DNA of 64,000 nucleotides from Erysipelothrix rhusiopathiae (GTDB lineage: Bacteria > Bacillota_I > Bacilli_A > Erysipelotrichales > Erysipelotrichaceae): positions 1,116,001 through 1,180,000 of the forward strand of contig NZ_LR134439.1 in NCBI RefSeq assembly GCF_900637845.1, read 5' to 3'. Below the pieces are notes generated by a model. The model ran no database searches. It saw only the letters and a program-made list of their open reading frames with translations, and was not told where the DNA came from. Of the stretch, positions 5,574-14,851 are shown in pieces (position 1 is the first letter of the stretch; the number at the start of each line of letters is the position of its first letter). The position numbers were made by a program, and so were the translations under genes.

Positions 5574-5624
5574 ATGACCAACATAAATCACAAACAAAAC
5601 AGCTCTTTCTTTTACTTTAGATAA
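5574..5624 (+). CDS. Leader peptide 1 with Phe/Tyr codon cluster (MTNINHKQNSSFFYFR)
   Basis: A 16-codon open reading frame opens with ATG 5574, ten bases after AGAAAGG (5557-5563), and stops at TAA 5622-5624. Codons 12-15 read Phe-Phe-Tyr-Phe, close to the stop, the hallmark of a ribosome-stalling attenuation peptide. It lies about 110 bases upstream of the receptor gene and immediately before a set of alternative RNA helices. A second leader ORF occupies the same place before the paralogous receptor gene, begins with a similar context (GAAAGGTTGG) and also ends in aromatic codons. Expression of the peptide is inferred, not shown. Confidence 0.75.
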   Translation: MTNINHKQNSSFFYFR

Positions 5625-5625
5625 A

Positions 5626-5714
5626 GGTTAATATCGCTACACGGTATTAACCCTTTTTCCTAGGTTAATCGAATGTAGCTCACTAATCAAAAAGCTGCAT
5701 TTGCAGCTTTTTTT
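5626..5714 (+). promoter_or_regulatory. Ribosome-mediated attenuator upstream of aromatic receptor gene 1
   Basis: Four competing helices can be drawn by eye. Helix A:B pairs GGTTAATA (5626-5633) with TATTAACC (5645-5652). An anti-antiterminator pairs GCTACA (5636-5641) plus ATTAACC (5646-5652) with GGTTAAT (5663-5669) plus TGTAGC (5674-5679). An antiterminator pairs AATGTAGCT (5672-5680) with AGCTGCATT (5693-5701). The terminator is 5689-5714. A ribosome at the leader stop would cover segment A and favour termination. A ribosome stalled earlier on Phe/Tyr codons would leave A:B free and allow read-through. No T-box consensus is present. Confidence 0.75.
5689..5714 (+). terminator. Leader terminator of attenuator 1
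   Basis: AAAAAGCTGCA, TT loop, TGCAGC and a seven-T run (5708-5714), ending 18 bases before the receptor start codon. Position just upstream of the ribosome-binding site marks it as a conditional terminator. Confidence 0.88.
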
Positions 5715-5731
5715 GTTTGAAGGAGGAAACG

Positions 5732-6685
5732 ATGAAAAAAACAATGATATTCTGTATGCTTCTACTATTATTGGTAGGCTGTAATAGTACAAAACAAAAA
5801 GATATATATACGATTGGTGTGTTACAATTCGCAGATCATCCATCGTTGGATGCGGCTTATGAAGGGATGAAGGTTAAGTTAGACAAGATTATAGGAAGTG
5901 AAAACTATCGAATTATTTATCAAAATGCACAAGGAGAAAACGGAAATAATGAATTGATGGCTCGTGGTTTTGTATCTCAAAACGTGGACTTAATCTATGC
6001 AATTGGAACAAACTCCGCACAAAGCGCTAAAAACGCGACGGAAGGAACAAGCATTCCAGTAGTTTTTAACGCGGTTACAGATCCAGTTACTGCAGGACTT
6101 GTTGATTCGATGGAACAACCTGGGCAATTTGTTACGGGAGTTAGTGATCAAACGCCCGTTAAAAAACAGTTAGCGCTTATTAAAGCACTCTTACCTGAAG
6201 CGAAGCGTATGGGGATTGTTTATAATATTGGTGAAATTAATTCTGTGACTCAAGTTGAAGTCATCACTTCCTTCGAAAAAGATTTAGAAGTCGTTTCGAT
6301 TGGGGTCACAAGTATGCAAGAATTACCAATTGCAACTCAACAGTTAGCAGAAAAGGTAGATGTTATTTTCAACATAACAGATAACATGGTCGTTGCATCA
6401 ACTGCGAATATTGCGGATATTGCTTCAAAATATAAGGTACCGGTGTTTGCCTCGGAAGATGGTCAGCTTGATGAGGGGATTTTAGCGACGGAATCGTTAA
6501 GTTACTTTGATCTAGGGGAATCGGCGGGTGATCTAATCTGTAAAATCCTTGTGGATCAGGTAGATCCAAATAATCTTTCTATTTTAATTTCAGATAAGAC
6601 AAAATTGTTTATAAATAAAGAGGTTGCTAAGAAGTTTGGTATTGCGATTCCAGCATCACTTGCAGAACGTAATGAGTTAAAATGA
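5732..6685 (+). CDS. ABC transporter substrate-binding lipoprotein 1 (TrpX-type, aromatic amino acid candidate)
   Basis: A 317-residue lipoprotein of the COG2984 receptor family, which in Firmicutes is associated with tryptophan/aromatic amino acid import. ATG 5732 follows AAGGAGG (5720-5726); an earlier in-frame TTG overlaps that site and is rejected. A short signal peptide ends in the lipobox LVGC (Cys about residue 17). Two alternating-lobe receptor segments follow (IGVLQFADHPSLDAA near the N-terminus, VFNAVTDPVTAGLV in the middle). It is about as long as, and clearly paralogous to, the receptor at 6988. No permease gene is adjacent, so it presumably shares the permease and ATPase at 7944-9633. 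The Phe/Tyr leader peptide argues for an aromatic substrate; the exact ligand is not visible. Confidence 0.8.
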   Translation: MKKTMIFCMLLLLLVGCNSTKQKDIYTIGVLQFADHPSLDAAYEGMKVKLDKIIGSENYRIIYQNAQGENGNNELMARGFVSQNVDLIYAIGTNSAQSAKNATEGTSIPVVFNAVTDPVTAGLVDSMEQPGQFVTGVSDQTPVKKQLALIKALLPEAKRMGIVYNIGEINSVTQVEVITSFEKDLEVVSIGVTSMQELPIATQQLAEKVDVIFNITDNMVVASTANIADIASKYKVPVFASEDGQLDEGILATESLSYFDLGESAGDLICKILVDQVDPNNLSILISDKTKLFINKEVAKKFGIAIPASLAERNELK

Positions 6686-6733
6686 AAATATATTCATTAA
6701 GAATGTAAGAAATGAATAAAACTGAAAAAGTAC

Positions 6734-6762
6734 TTGCATCTAAAAAACAACAGTGTTATGGT
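6734..6762 (+). promoter_or_regulatory. Candidate promoter of the second aromatic leader
   Basis: TTGCAT (6734-6739), 17-base spacer, TATGGT (6757-6762), placed 25 bases before the leader ATG. Layout parallels the promoter at 5520-5548, suggesting the promoter, leader and receptor gene were duplicated together. Confidence 0.5.
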
Positions 6763-6786
6763 TGTAACGAAAGGTTGGGTATTCCA

Positions 6787-6849
6787 ATGAAAAATATAAA
6801 CAATTTAAATCAAGCCCAACAATGGAGCTACTATTATTATTTTAGTTAA
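6787..6849 (+). CDS. Leader peptide 2 with Trp/Tyr/Phe codon cluster (MKNINNLNQAQQWSYYYYFS)
   Basis: A 20-codon reading frame starts at ATG 6787 behind AAGG (6771-6774) and stops at TAA 6847-6849. Codons 13-19 read Trp-Ser-Tyr-Tyr-Tyr-Tyr-Phe, six aromatic codons within seven, directly before the stop. A Tyr-Tyr-Tyr-Tyr run next to Trp is hard to explain except as a translation sensor. The stop codon lies two bases before the first arm of helix A:B, exactly the spacing of leader 1. The GTTGGG upstream of the ATG (6774-6779) can pair with CCCAAC inside the ORF (6815-6820), which may tune initiation. Confidence 0.82.
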   Translation: MKNINNLNQAQQWSYYYYFS

Positions 6850-6850
6850 T

Positions 6851-6963
6851 TAGTTAATATGCCGCGTGGATATTAGCTATTTTGTGTTACTAAAATCTAC
6901 AGGCTCCCATCAATCTCGTATCAACTTAACAAAGCCGTGTAGATTTCTGTACATGGCTTTTTT
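6851..6963 (+). promoter_or_regulatory. Ribosome-mediated attenuator upstream of aromatic receptor gene 2
   Basis: The same helix set as attenuator 1 is built from different bases. Helix A:B pairs TAGTTAATAT (6851-6860) with ATATTAGCTA (6870-6879). The anti-antiterminator pairs GTGGATATTAG (6866-6876) with CTAAAATCTAC (6890-6900), one mismatch, extended by GCC (6861-6863) with GGC (6902-6904). The antiterminator pairs AATCTACAGGCT (6894-6905) with AGCCGTGTAGATT (6933-6945), one bulge. The terminator is 6931-6963. Conserved pairing with changed sequence is compensatory evidence for a real RNA switch. Confidence 0.8.
6931..6963 (+). terminator. Leader terminator of attenuator 2
   Basis: AAAGCCGTGTA pairs with TACATGGCTTT (one G-T), followed by a T run, 25 bases before the receptor ATG. 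Confidence 0.85.
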
Positions 6964-6987
6964 GTTGGATTGAAAGAGGAGAAAAAA

Positions 6988-7944
6988 ATGAAAAAAATAA
7001 TATTGATGCTCATAGGAGCACTTGTACTTACAGGGTGCATGGATAGTAAACAGAAGGAAATGAGAATCGGTGTTATTCAATGGGCTGAACACCCAGCGCT
7101 AGCAGATTCATTAGAAGGATTTAAAAAAGGTCTTGATGATCATGGCTTGACCGATAAGATTTCACTGGAAGTTAAAAATGCGAATGAGGATGTCGGTACT
7201 GCACATCTCATTGCAAATCAGTTTGTACGTGATTCTGTTGATCTAATATTTGTAATTGCAACACCAGCTGCTCAAGCAGCGATGAATGCAGTTGAAAAAA
7301 CAGAAATCCCAGTCATCTTCAGTGCTGTATCGGATGCGAAACAAGCAGGATTAGTCGATGATTTAATGCAACCGGGAGGCAACTTAACAGGGGTTAGTGA
7401 TTTACCGCCGCTGTCGAAACAAGTTGCGCTGATCAAAGAAATGCTTCCCGACGCTAAAAATATAGGAATATTATTCAATACAAGCGAAATTAATAGTAGA
7501 AATCAGATTGATGAAGTGCGTGGTATTGCACAAGATTTAGAAATTAATGTAATTGAAAAAGGTGTAAGTCAGGCTAACGAGATTGCGATTGCAACACAAC
7601 AATTAGTTCAAGAGACCGATGCAATTTATATCGTAAACGATAATATGATTGCTGCTGCTACTGGACTTGTGGTAGATACTGCAAATGGTGCCAATAAACC
7701 TGTATTTATGGCAGAGGTTGGACAGTTTGATCAAGGCATTCTCGCTTCAGATTCGGTAAGTTATAAACAACTTGGCGAAAAAGCTGGGGAAATGGCTTAC
7801 GAAATTTTAGTAAATAGATCAGCGATTTCATCAATTCCAGTTTATGTTTCCGAACAAACGGAATTATTCGTAAGTGAGAACGTTGCATCGAAACTTGGTA
7901 TCAGTATTCCAGAAACGGTACGTGAAAGGGCGGTAATTCAATAA
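6988..7944 (+). CDS. ABC transporter substrate-binding lipoprotein 2 (TrpX-type, aromatic amino acid candidate)
   Basis: A 318-residue receptor lipoprotein, paralogue of the product at 5732. ATG 6988 lies after AAAGAGGAG (6973-6981); the upstream in-frame TTG at 6970 overlaps that site. The signal peptide ends in lipobox LTGC. The two-lobe receptor body follows the same motif order (IGVIQWAEHPALADS, VIFSAVSDAKQAGLV, EVGQFDQGILASDS). The stop overlaps the permease start (TAATG at 7942-7946), so receptor, permease and ATPase form one operon. The leader is dominated by Trp and Tyr codons, which points to import of those residues. COG2984/COG4120/COG1101 sets are predicted tryptophan importers in other Firmicutes; substrate here is inferred. 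Confidence 0.83.
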   Translation: MKKIILMLIGALVLTGCMDSKQKEMRIGVIQWAEHPALADSLEGFKKGLDDHGLTDKISLEVKNANEDVGTAHLIANQFVRDSVDLIFVIATPAAQAAMNAVEKTEIPVIFSAVSDAKQAGLVDDLMQPGGNLTGVSDLPPLSKQVALIKEMLPDAKNIGILFNTSEINSRNQIDEVRGIAQDLEINVIEKGVSQANEIAIATQQLVQETDAIYIVNDNMIAAATGLVVDTANGANKPVFMAEVGQFDQGILASDSVSYKQLGEKAGEMAYEILVNRSAISSIPVYVSEQTELFVSENVASKLGISIPETVRERAVIQ

Positions 7945-8867
7945 TGGGACTTATTAATGCTTCATTTATTTCAGACATCTTAATTCAAGGATTTCTATAC
8001 GGAATTTTGTCGATGGGAGTTCTTATCTCCTATAAAATTTTAGATATTCCGGATTTGTCCGTCGATGGAACATATCCACTGGGGGCAGCTGTGAGTGCTA
8101 TTTTAATTCTTAATGGATTTAATCCGTGGTTAGCATTACTCATTTCAACAATTGCGGGCGCATCTGCAGGTGTTGTTACAGGAGTATTCCATGTTAAATT
8201 TGGTATATCGTCCTTACTGAGTGGTATTTTGGTGATGACAGGACTTTATTCCATCAATTTAGTTGTAGCTGGAGGAAAACCTAACATTCCGCTTTTTAAA
8301 TTTGAAACAATCTTTTCTACGCAATGGTTAGAACAAATCGGAGCACCCAATTTTATAATTAATAACTTTCAACTCATTATCATGGCGGTTCTGGTACTTA
8401 TAATAAAGGTAATCATTGATCAACTGTTGACAACTAAAACGGGCTATTTACTCAAAGTTACGGGCGACAATGAACAACTGGTTACCTCACTTGGCCACAA
8501 TGTTGGTGTAGTGAAAATCATGGGCTTGGCTTTAGCGAATGCGATTGTTGCATTTAGTGGTGGATTGGCTGTTTCAGTGAATAAATACTTTGATATCTCG
8601 CTTGGAACGGGAATGGTTGTCCTGGGATTATCTTCTGTAATTTTAGGAACAACAATTTTAGGAAGAACTAAATTAAAATCAACAACAATGGTTATTTTTG
8701 GAGCAATTGTTTACCGTCTAATTGTAGCATTTGCAATTCGAATGGGAATTGATGCACAGTTCATGAAACTGATGACTGTTGCAATCTTCATCGGAGCAAT
8801 TATGCTGAATAAAATTAAACTTCCAAAACATATGGATACGAAGGAGAAACGACATGTTACAGCTTAA
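7944..8867 (+). CDS. ABC transporter permease (TrpY-type)
   Basis: A 307-residue integral membrane protein, the transmembrane channel of the importer. It has many hydrophobic segments, the family-typical N-terminal part around DIPDLSVDGTYPLGAAV, and a basic C-terminus. It matches the COG4120 permease family related to branched-chain amino acid permeases. Start ATG 7944 overlaps the receptor stop by one base, and its end overlaps the ATPase start by 14 bases, indicating translational coupling. It is the only permease of the locus and probably serves both receptors. Confidence 0.85.
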   Translation: MGLINASFISDILIQGFLYGILSMGVLISYKILDIPDLSVDGTYPLGAAVSAILILNGFNPWLALLISTIAGASAGVVTGVFHVKFGISSLLSGILVMTGLYSINLVVAGGKPNIPLFKFETIFSTQWLEQIGAPNFIINNFQLIIMAVLVLIIKVIIDQLLTTKTGYLLKVTGDNEQLVTSLGHNVGVVKIMGLALANAIVAFSGGLAVSVNKYFDISLGTGMVVLGLSSVILGTTILGRTKLKSTTMVIFGAIVYRLIVAFAIRMGIDAQFMKLMTVAIFIGAIMLNKIKLPKHMDTKEKRHVTA

Positions 8868-9633
8868 TAACATTTCAAAAGCGTTCAATCGAAATACCCC
8901 CATGGAGACGAAACTTTACCAAAATGTGAATCTTCAAGTTGATGAGGGTGAGTTTGTCACAATTATTGGCTCGAATGGTAGTGGAAAATCAACGTTACTC
9001 AATTTAGTATGTGGCCAAATCGATCCTGATGAAGGTAACTTGATATTTATGGGTCATAATCTTCTAAAAATGAAGAATCACGAACGTTTTAAAACAATTT
9101 CACGCGTATACCAAGATCCGATGGCCGGAACATCACCTTCGCTAACTGTGTTGGAAAATCTGTCTCTTGCTTCAAATAAAGGGAAACTCATGAGTTTAAA
9201 AAAGGCGATTAACCATAAAAAAGAATCAGAATTTATCGCGTTATTGAAATCGCTAGATTTAGGACTTGAAGATAAATTACATGTCCAAGTTGGTCAACTT
9301 TCAGGAGGGCAGCGCCAAGCGTTGTCATTACTCATGGCTTTAATGAATAATCCAAACTTATTACTTCTTGATGAGCATACAGCAGCACTTGATCCAAAAA
9401 GTTCGGAATCCATCATTAAACTTACTCAGGAGATGGTAAGCAAACGAAAAATTACGACCATTATGGTAACGCATAATCTACAGCATGCACTCGATTATGG
9501 TACGCGATTATTGATGTTTCATAATGGTACGATCATCCGTGATATTTCAAATGATGAAAAATCCAAACTTACGAAAACTGATTTATTAAATATGTTTGCA
9601 TCATATGACGATAATTATGTAGAAACAATCTAA
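8854..9633 (+). CDS. ABC transporter ATP-binding protein (TrpZ-type)
   Basis: A 259-residue nucleotide-binding subunit. Visible motifs are Walker A GSNGSGKST, the signature LSGGQRQAL, a Walker B segment LLLLDEHTAALDP and the H-loop VTHNL. The Q-loop segment reads YQDPMAGT. ATG 8854 follows AAGGAGA and overlaps the permease gene. It belongs to the COG1101 family that pairs with COG2984/COG4120. The operon ends directly afterwards with a terminator that starts in the stop codon. Confidence 0.9.
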   Translation: MLQLNNISKAFNRNTPMETKLYQNVNLQVDEGEFVTIIGSNGSGKSTLLNLVCGQIDPDEGNLIFMGHNLLKMKNHERFKTISRVYQDPMAGTSPSLTVLENLSLASNKGKLMSLKKAINHKKESEFIALLKSLDLGLEDKLHVQVGQLSGGQRQALSLLMALMNNPNLLLLDEHTAALDPKSSESIIKLTQEMVSKRKITTIMVTHNLQHALDYGTRLLMFHNGTIIRDISNDEKSKLTKTDLLNMFASYDDNYVETI

Positions 9634-9916: not shown

Positions 9917-11457
<1,541 letters not shown>

Positions 11458-11538
11458 AAGGAGTAATTAGAAAGACGTGAAGTTGACACCTAAAGTTTCC
11501 TGTTTAGTTTTGAGAGTCCGTTGGAATCTCAAGAAAAA

Positions 11539-11548
11539 TGATCTTTGA
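11539..11548 (+). promoter_or_regulatory. boxA-like site before 23S
   Basis: TGATCTTTGA followed by AAACTGAAT, closely matching the boxA at 9823-9832. Confidence 0.55.
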
Positions 11549-11565
11549 AAACTGAATAACAGAAA
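11548..11565 (+). other. 5' arm of pre-23S processing stem
   Basis: AAAACTGAATAACAGAAA is perfectly complementary over 18 bases to 14692-14709 downstream of 23S. Confidence 0.85.
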
Positions 11566-11762
11566 AGAAAAAGAGATAGACAAAGAAATAAATGTTATCA
11601 ACATGATCTTTTCGAATAGTTGTATAAAACTAGATTTACATCAAGTTAAACAAAAACAGTAACTTAAGCAATTAAGTAAGCAATCAAAGCAAACACACAG
11701 CTTATCAAGCGATAAGCGTTAAAAAAAACCTGATTTTAAGAATTAGGGCGCGAAATTACATG

Positions 11763-14660
<2,898 letters not shown>

Positions 14661-14736
14661 CAAAAGATACAACGATTCGAAAAAGATCAAATTTCTGTTA
14701 TTCAGTTTTGAGAGTTCATCTCTCTAATGCACTACG

Positions 14737-14851
14737 ATCTGGTGATTTTAGCGAAGTGGTCACACCTGTTCCCATCTCGAACACAGAAGTTAAGCACTTT
14801 AGCGGCGACAATATCTAGCCACGCGCTAGTGAAGATAGTTCATCGCCAGGT
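14737..14851 (+). rRNA. rrf: 5S ribosomal RNA
   Basis: CTGGTG (14739-14744) pairs with CGCCAG (14844-14849) to close the molecule. In between lie the typical CACACCTGTTCCCATCTCGA and ACAGAAGTTAAGC segments. Length is about 115 bases. It is the last gene of the rRNA operon. Confidence 0.95.

Follow-up and report, generated by a model that had tools for sequence, protein, structure and literature searches.

A gene for an ABC substrate-binding protein of Erysipelothrix rhusiopathiae (R2) is preceded by a short ORF with a run of tyrosine codons, a set of competing helices and an intrinsic terminator. This region is a candidate ribosome-mediated transcription attenuator sensing charged tRNA-Tyr, a reading that draws partly on modelled folding and to which we assign a probability of about 0.88. 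The paralogous gene R1 has a leader with the same helices and a run of phenylalanine codons. All positions refer to the window, that is, the whole stretch of 64,000 nucleotides that was analysed.

Structure of the locus

The region 5574-9633 encodes two ABC substrate-binding proteins, one permease and one ATPase. The R1 and R2 genes are each preceded by their own short ORF and terminator. The following features were identified.

5574-5714, plus strand: Phe-type paralogous leader preceding R1, with the same helices and terminator; ORF 5574-5624 encodes MTNINHKQNSSFFYFR
5732-6685, plus strand: receptor R1, ABC substrate-binding protein, PF04392
6734-6762, plus strand: probable promoter TTGCAT-17 nt-TATGGT, found by eye; weak, under the threshold of the consensus scan
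6769-6774, plus strand: Shine-Dalgarno box GAAAGG of the leader ORF, read from the sequence and conserved in relatives
6774-6779, plus strand: 5' arm GTTGGG of hairpin P0; partner CCCAAC at 6815-6820, within the ORF
6787-6849, plus strand: Tyr-type leader ORF encoding MKNINNLNQAQQWSYYYYFS, from the sequence and an ORF scan; ATG at 6787, stop codon TAA at 6847-6849
6824-6829, plus strand: segment 0, GGAGCT, holding the conserved Ser codon AGC; partner 2' at 6902-6907
6829-6840, plus strand: Tyr codons of the Tyr-type leader ORF, followed by the Phe codon at 6841-6843
6839-6846, plus strand: segment Z, AUUUUAGU, in the last codons; partner C, ACUAAAAU, at 6889-6896
6851-6860, plus strand: arm A of hairpin A:B, placed by the helix and by covariation and shuffle tests
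6861-6871, plus strand: segment 1, GCC..GUGGAU; partner 6895-6904
6870-6879, plus strand: arm B, pairing with A or (6873-6876) with C at 6890-6893
6893-6905, plus strand: segment 2, pairing with segment 1 or segment 3
6931-6963, plus strand: intrinsic terminator 3:4, 11 pairs followed by a T run
6933-6946, plus strand: segment 3 in the antiterminator 2:3
6988-7944, plus strand: receptor R2, ABC substrate-binding protein, PF04392
7944-8867, plus strand: permease of the same transporter
8854-9633, plus strand: ATPase of the same transporter

The Tyr-type leader ORF has 20 codons with six aromatic ones among seven and ends in WSYYYYFS before the stop codon, as described in the initial annotation. 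ORFs with such an aromatic tail occur only twice on the two strands of the 64 kb, at 5574-5624 and 6787-6849. The stop codon is followed by A, segment 1, B, C, segment 2, a linker, 3 and 4, so ordered, and the terminator lies between the leader ORF and the R2 gene. Two further details of that annotation, the GAAAGGTTGG context common to both leader ORFs and the location of segment 1 in the loop of A:B, were confirmed. However, the gap that it had given as two bases between the stop codon and the first arm is not constant: helix A starts 1-2 nt past the stop in the window and 0-3 nt past it in all 33 leaders of the family described below.

A transcript from the promoter at 6734-6762 would probably start at about the Shine-Dalgarno box of the leader. 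No other clear terminator was found between R1 and the Tyr leader, and thus RNA polymerase coming from the R1 promoter should likewise run into the Tyr attenuator on its way to the permease and ATPase genes. Through this stretch (6685-6990) the Tyr switch may control the transporter as a whole. Directly downstream of the transporter genes, at 9917-14851, is a complete rRNA operon (16S, 23S, 5S).

Distribution of the leaders

We found 33 leaders, 11 of the Phe type and 22 of the Tyr type, in 22 genomes of the family; they are related by descent, and counts across them are not independent. The leader ORF and its Shine-Dalgarno box are intact in all of them, and the loss of the ORF, which had been named in advance as evidence against the attenuator, was not observed in any of the 33. 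In the genus, including the records named E. anatis and E. aquatica, the receptors were found in 12 of 13 genomes, and each readable leader is intact. The R1 leaders end in S-FFFFF-R/T/S before the stop or nearly so, and the R2 leaders mostly in x-S-YYYYF-S. The Tyr-type leader is also present in ten genomes from other genera of the family (G017, G218, G265, G269, G270, G280-G284), with quite different bases.

The covariance search proposed in the initial annotation was performed with a model built from 26 of the 33 leaders. It retrieved 32 leaders in 21 of 273 genomes of the family, its own building sequences included, exclusively before these receptor genes. In the genome of the window it had no further match besides the two leaders, and a search of plasmids gave no match. 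The intact ORFs and the position of the leaders before homologous receptors support the initial reading as a leader-peptide attenuator. A model built from Phe-type leaders only also detects Tyr-type ones, with 33 bits for the window leader and a maximum of 51.7. However, the element is nearly palindromic, and for this reason matches on the reverse strand reach 31.7 bits; therefore this cross-detection supports a common origin only modestly.

In other members of the family the same gene is preceded by a T-box (L049, L050, L141, L154, L155, L157, L161, L162, L166). From the sequences, the leader could be a local replacement of the T-box, or the T-box could have replaced the leader. Tyr-rich leaders MNKNENRSYYYYYYFRIMK and MTNSRKYYYYYCYAQVDRCCTSLD, with other downstream folds, were observed before homologous receptors in L048 (G014) and L058 (Firmicutes UBA1764), respectively; these are possibly of independent origin.

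Conserved helices

The helices A:B, 1B:C2, 2:3 and 3:4 were found in essentially all leaders. Compared with dinucleotide shuffles (p<0.05), A:B is more stable in 33 of 33 leaders, 1B:C2 in 32 of 33, and the antiterminator 2:3, mutually exclusive with the terminator, in 30 of 33. This agrees with the competing helices originally described for both leaders of the window, and the selection on the RNA fold proposed there is supported by compensatory changes in A:B. The covariation of A:B is 0.301 vs 0.191 +/- 0.016 in shuffles (0/500), and both-side changes occur in 4 of 8 pairs (18 cells), slid controls being far lower. The covariation of the 1:2 helix alone among Tyr-type leaders was not significant, and it was left out of the evidence.

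Folding of whole leaders yielded three further helices that use bases of the ORF, namely 0:2', Z:C and P0; the first two, connecting the ORF with the downstream region, had been missed in the initial annotation. Firstly, segment 0, just 5' of the aromatic run, pairs with 2', which is the 3' tip of segment 2. The pairing is GGAGCU:GGCUCC in the window, GCGACC:GGUCGC in G017 and GUUAACUAC:GUGGUUGAC in G281; within a single genus it is GUGUC:GACAC (G282, G284) vs UUGUUAC:GUAACAA (G280; G283 has U for the last C). Secondly, the Z:C pairing is AUUUUAGU:ACUAAAAU in the window, with compensatory changes to AUUAUAGU:ACUAUAAU in G005 and UACUUUAG:CUAAAGUA in G010. Finally, P0 pairs the Shine-Dalgarno spacer with codons 5' of the aromatic run. 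In a test that exchanged partners at random among 22 divergent leaders, the mean pairing energy of the true partners was matched in 0 of 20000 permutations for each of 0:2', Z:C and A:B, and in 1 of 20000 for P0. Thus the conservation of the Ser codon and of GCCCAACAA is accounted for by RNA pairing, not by the peptide.

These pairings bear on a different role of the ORF. Free tyrosine or another ligand might cause the aromatic peptide itself to arrest inside the ribosome tunnel, comparable to TnaC with tryptophan, and the RNA switch would then read the stall. Its aromatic residues are indeed near the stop codon, and the QAQQ-x-S motif is well conserved within the genus. However, the peptides show no conservation outside the aromatic run (YYGYYH, YYFYFYFR, FFFFFT, YYYFIFS), pairing with the Shine-Dalgarno spacer (P0) and with 2' accounts for the QAQQ and Ser codons, and in other genera these bases change together with their partners. 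We consider arrest by the nascent peptide improbable.

Codon register and the sensed amino acid

In 32 of 33 leaders the aromatic codon nearest to the stop occupies position -2; in the remaining one, of the Phe type, the stop has moved by one codon and the last aromatic codon is at -3. If the footprint extends some 13 nt beyond the A site, a ribosome at -3 or further upstream leaves arm A bare, and one at -1 or at the stop covers it.

This fixed register also speaks against a regulator other than the ribosome, such as an RNA-binding protein or an RNA ligand, with the ORF being incidental. The structured part after the stop codon does have two alternative folds by itself. On the other hand, the ORF is intact in all 33 leaders with its codons held in register with the stop and A, two helices draw on its bases, and no Rfam riboswitch or T-box matches the leader. 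We regard this explanation as very unlikely, even less probable than peptide arrest, and retain ribosome-mediated attenuation as the preferred reading.

Tryptophan, initially suggested among the sensed amino acids, was rejected: the W codon is replaced by M, G or L in four members of the genus and is absent in others. In Tyr-type leaders, Tyr is found at -3 in 20 of 22 cases and at -5 in 19 of 22, and the window leader has four consecutive Tyr codons. In the Phe type, positions -2, -4 and -5 are nearly always Phe. From the codons, the sensed residue is most likely Tyr for the R2 leader and Phe for the R1 leader, and the leader codons may predict which amino acid each receptor imports.

The same attenuator might respond to aromatic amino acids generally, that is, to Tyr, Phe and, where present, Trp. 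The window leader combines W, four Y and F, and Y and F are mixed in leaders from other genera. However, Tyr predominates at -3 and -5, Trp occurs in about a quarter of Tyr-type leaders, and the Phe codon at -2 is within the zone where A is masked; in the model a stall there occurs without antitermination. General aromatic sensing is therefore the less probable variant, although a good deal more plausible than the two explanations above; a Tyr-specific response remains the preferred one.

Folding with a ribosome footprint

The ribosome was modelled as a gap of 30 nt and the whole leader was folded at equilibrium; footprints and equilibrium folding serve here as stand-ins for co-transcriptional kinetics. 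Averaged over the leaders, the terminator forms with a probability of 0.81 when no ribosome is present; this value falls to about 0.5 while the A site lies on the aromatic codons and rises again to 0.83 at -2 and to 0.91-0.93 at -1 and at the stop codon. For the window Tyr leader it is 0.99 when untranslated, 0.07 with the third Tyr codon in the A site, and 1.00 at the stop; the maximum drop among its shuffles is 0.01. The window Phe leader switches weakly (0.72 vs 0.96).

Over all leaders the mean drop is 0.51, vs 0.05 when the region after the stop is shuffled. The drop exceeds 0.3 in 21 of 33 leaders and in 7% of shuffles, and does not reach this value in the equilibrium model for the other 12 leaders (e.g. 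G003, G269, G281). Replacement of arm A by its complement abolishes the switch, the terminator probability being 0.84-0.90 throughout, and with segment 0 mutated the off state of untranslated RNA is weaker (0.57). A simpler model, restricted to RNA downstream of the ribosome, points the same way and holds for footprints of 11-17 nt, with a weak switch for the window Tyr leader (0.75 vs 1.00); inclusion of the upstream RNA brings the stalled value to 0.07.

A third receptor paralogue, present in five genomes of the genus, has leaders in which a single Trp codon is invariant (KRWSNKR, TTWSNSR, KRWSNRR), located at L031:2787-2940, L032:3195-3340, L037:2892-3049 and L041:2877-3031. A segment of their ORF pairs with covarying downstream bases and the terminator is strong; no switch was seen in the footprint folding model for this leader.

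Proposed mechanism

The following scheme is consistent with these data. Untranslated RNA would form one long hairpin (0:2', Z:C, A:B) holding segment 2, and the terminator 3:4 would form. When Tyr-tRNA is scarce, we infer that the ribosome would halt on the Tyr codons, covering segments 0 and Z and leaving A bare. A:B would then form, keeping B and segment 1 away, and segment 2 would be free for segment 3. The resulting helix 2:3 would block the terminator, leading to read-through in the cell and transcription of the receptor, permease and ATPase genes. When Tyr is ample, the ribosome at the stop codon would cover A and release B and segment 1; region 2 would then fold back on itself (1B:C2), allowing the terminator to form.

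Segment 2 would thus be free only with the ribosome on the aromatic codons, with 0 covered and A bare. In terms of the classical scheme, segments 0, Z and A would together correspond to region 1, and B, C and 2 to region 2. What is added would be the self-closure of region 2 (1B:C2) and its prevention by A:B. Whether the leader is indeed a detector of ribosome position, in which two nested checks permit read-through only with the ribosome on a few aromatic codons, and in which one architecture was recoded for Phe and Tyr in paralogous receptors, is a more ambitious claim, to which we give even odds. As both the absence of a ribosome and a finished peptide would lead to termination, the switch could work in a Firmicute, where the coupling of RNA polymerase and ribosome may be loose.

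The receptors and the need for import

The closest solved structure to R2 is CD0873 of C. difficile (213.7 bits), which binds tyrosine, its Glu-263 holding the Tyr hydroxyl (PMC6816091). This Glu is kept in R2, R1 and the third paralogue; in R2 it agrees with a Tyr ligand, and it says nothing about Phe for R1. The CD0873 pocket code (Glu-263/Tyr-279) was considered as a discriminator between Phe and Tyr and rejected, as all paralogues have Glu and Tyr. With the NCBIfam TrpX model R1 and R2 score 252 and 264 of 390 bits, far under the cut-off, and the label "tryptophan receptor" is probably wrong for both. In one species (G006, L035) an in-frame TAA breaks the R1 gene, leaving 196 aa open, and the Phe leader is intact.

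Chorismate synthase and prephenate dehydratase are absent from the genome (control genomes were all positive), and thus import should be needed. According to the model, the leader family as a whole may govern the import of aromatic amino acids in Erysipelothrix and its neighbours.

Comparison with known attenuators

Leader-peptide attenuation itself is textbook knowledge. The trp, phe and his attenuators of enterobacteria have a short ORF with regulatory codons and competing helices 1:2, 2:3 and 3:4. The leader described here is similar in having an ORF with regulatory codons, pairing of an ORF segment with 2, helices 2:3 and 3:4, and termination on untranslated RNA. Unlike in enterobacteria, region 2 lies beyond the reach of a ribosome at the stop codon and can fold back on itself (1B:C2), and an additional hairpin after the stop, A:B, would decide the outcome; besides, no Rfam leader family matches.

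The T-box model RF00230 did not match the window leaders and had 12 matches elsewhere in the genome. The amino acid leader families of Rfam 15 had no match at the gathering score. A weak match to the "trpB ncRNA motif" RF04312 at 6865-6968 (23.8 bits, cut-off 59, E 1.5) is most likely due to chance. No published description of the leader family was found in the searchable literature, and it is absent from Rfam. The principle of leader-peptide attenuation is known; a leader family with two nested checks, as proposed here, would be new. It offers paired mutations for probing how ribosome position is read by a switch at a distance from the stop codon.

According to Naville and Gautheret (2010, PMC2965389), Firmicutes seldom use leader-peptide attenuation, this job being usually done by T-boxes, and a His leader peptide replaces the T-box before hisZ/hisS* in bacilli. 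The latter case is similar, as an ordinary leader peptide stands in a Firmicute in place of a T-box; it differs in the amino acid and the genes, and the part of the paper available describes no counterpart of the A:B toggle. The Leu/Ile-rich attenuator peptide of Staphylococcus aureus ilvD, with genetic support, shares a codon-rich ORF, a terminator and a model of ribosome stalling in a Firmicute; unlike the Erysipelothrix leader, it belongs to branched-chain biosynthesis and in its model the antiterminator pairs with the poly-U tail (PMC5794164). The candidate uORFC-13-1 motif before aroF of Acholeplasma, a Phe-coding uORF followed by a terminator, likewise involves aromatic amino acids, but precedes a biosynthesis gene in another genus and has another structure (PMC8632094). 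Finally, a T-box controls the homologous aromatic amino acid transporter trpXYZ of Streptococcus suis: there, too, tRNA charging governs the transporter, but the tRNA is sensed directly, without an ORF (PMC9382623).
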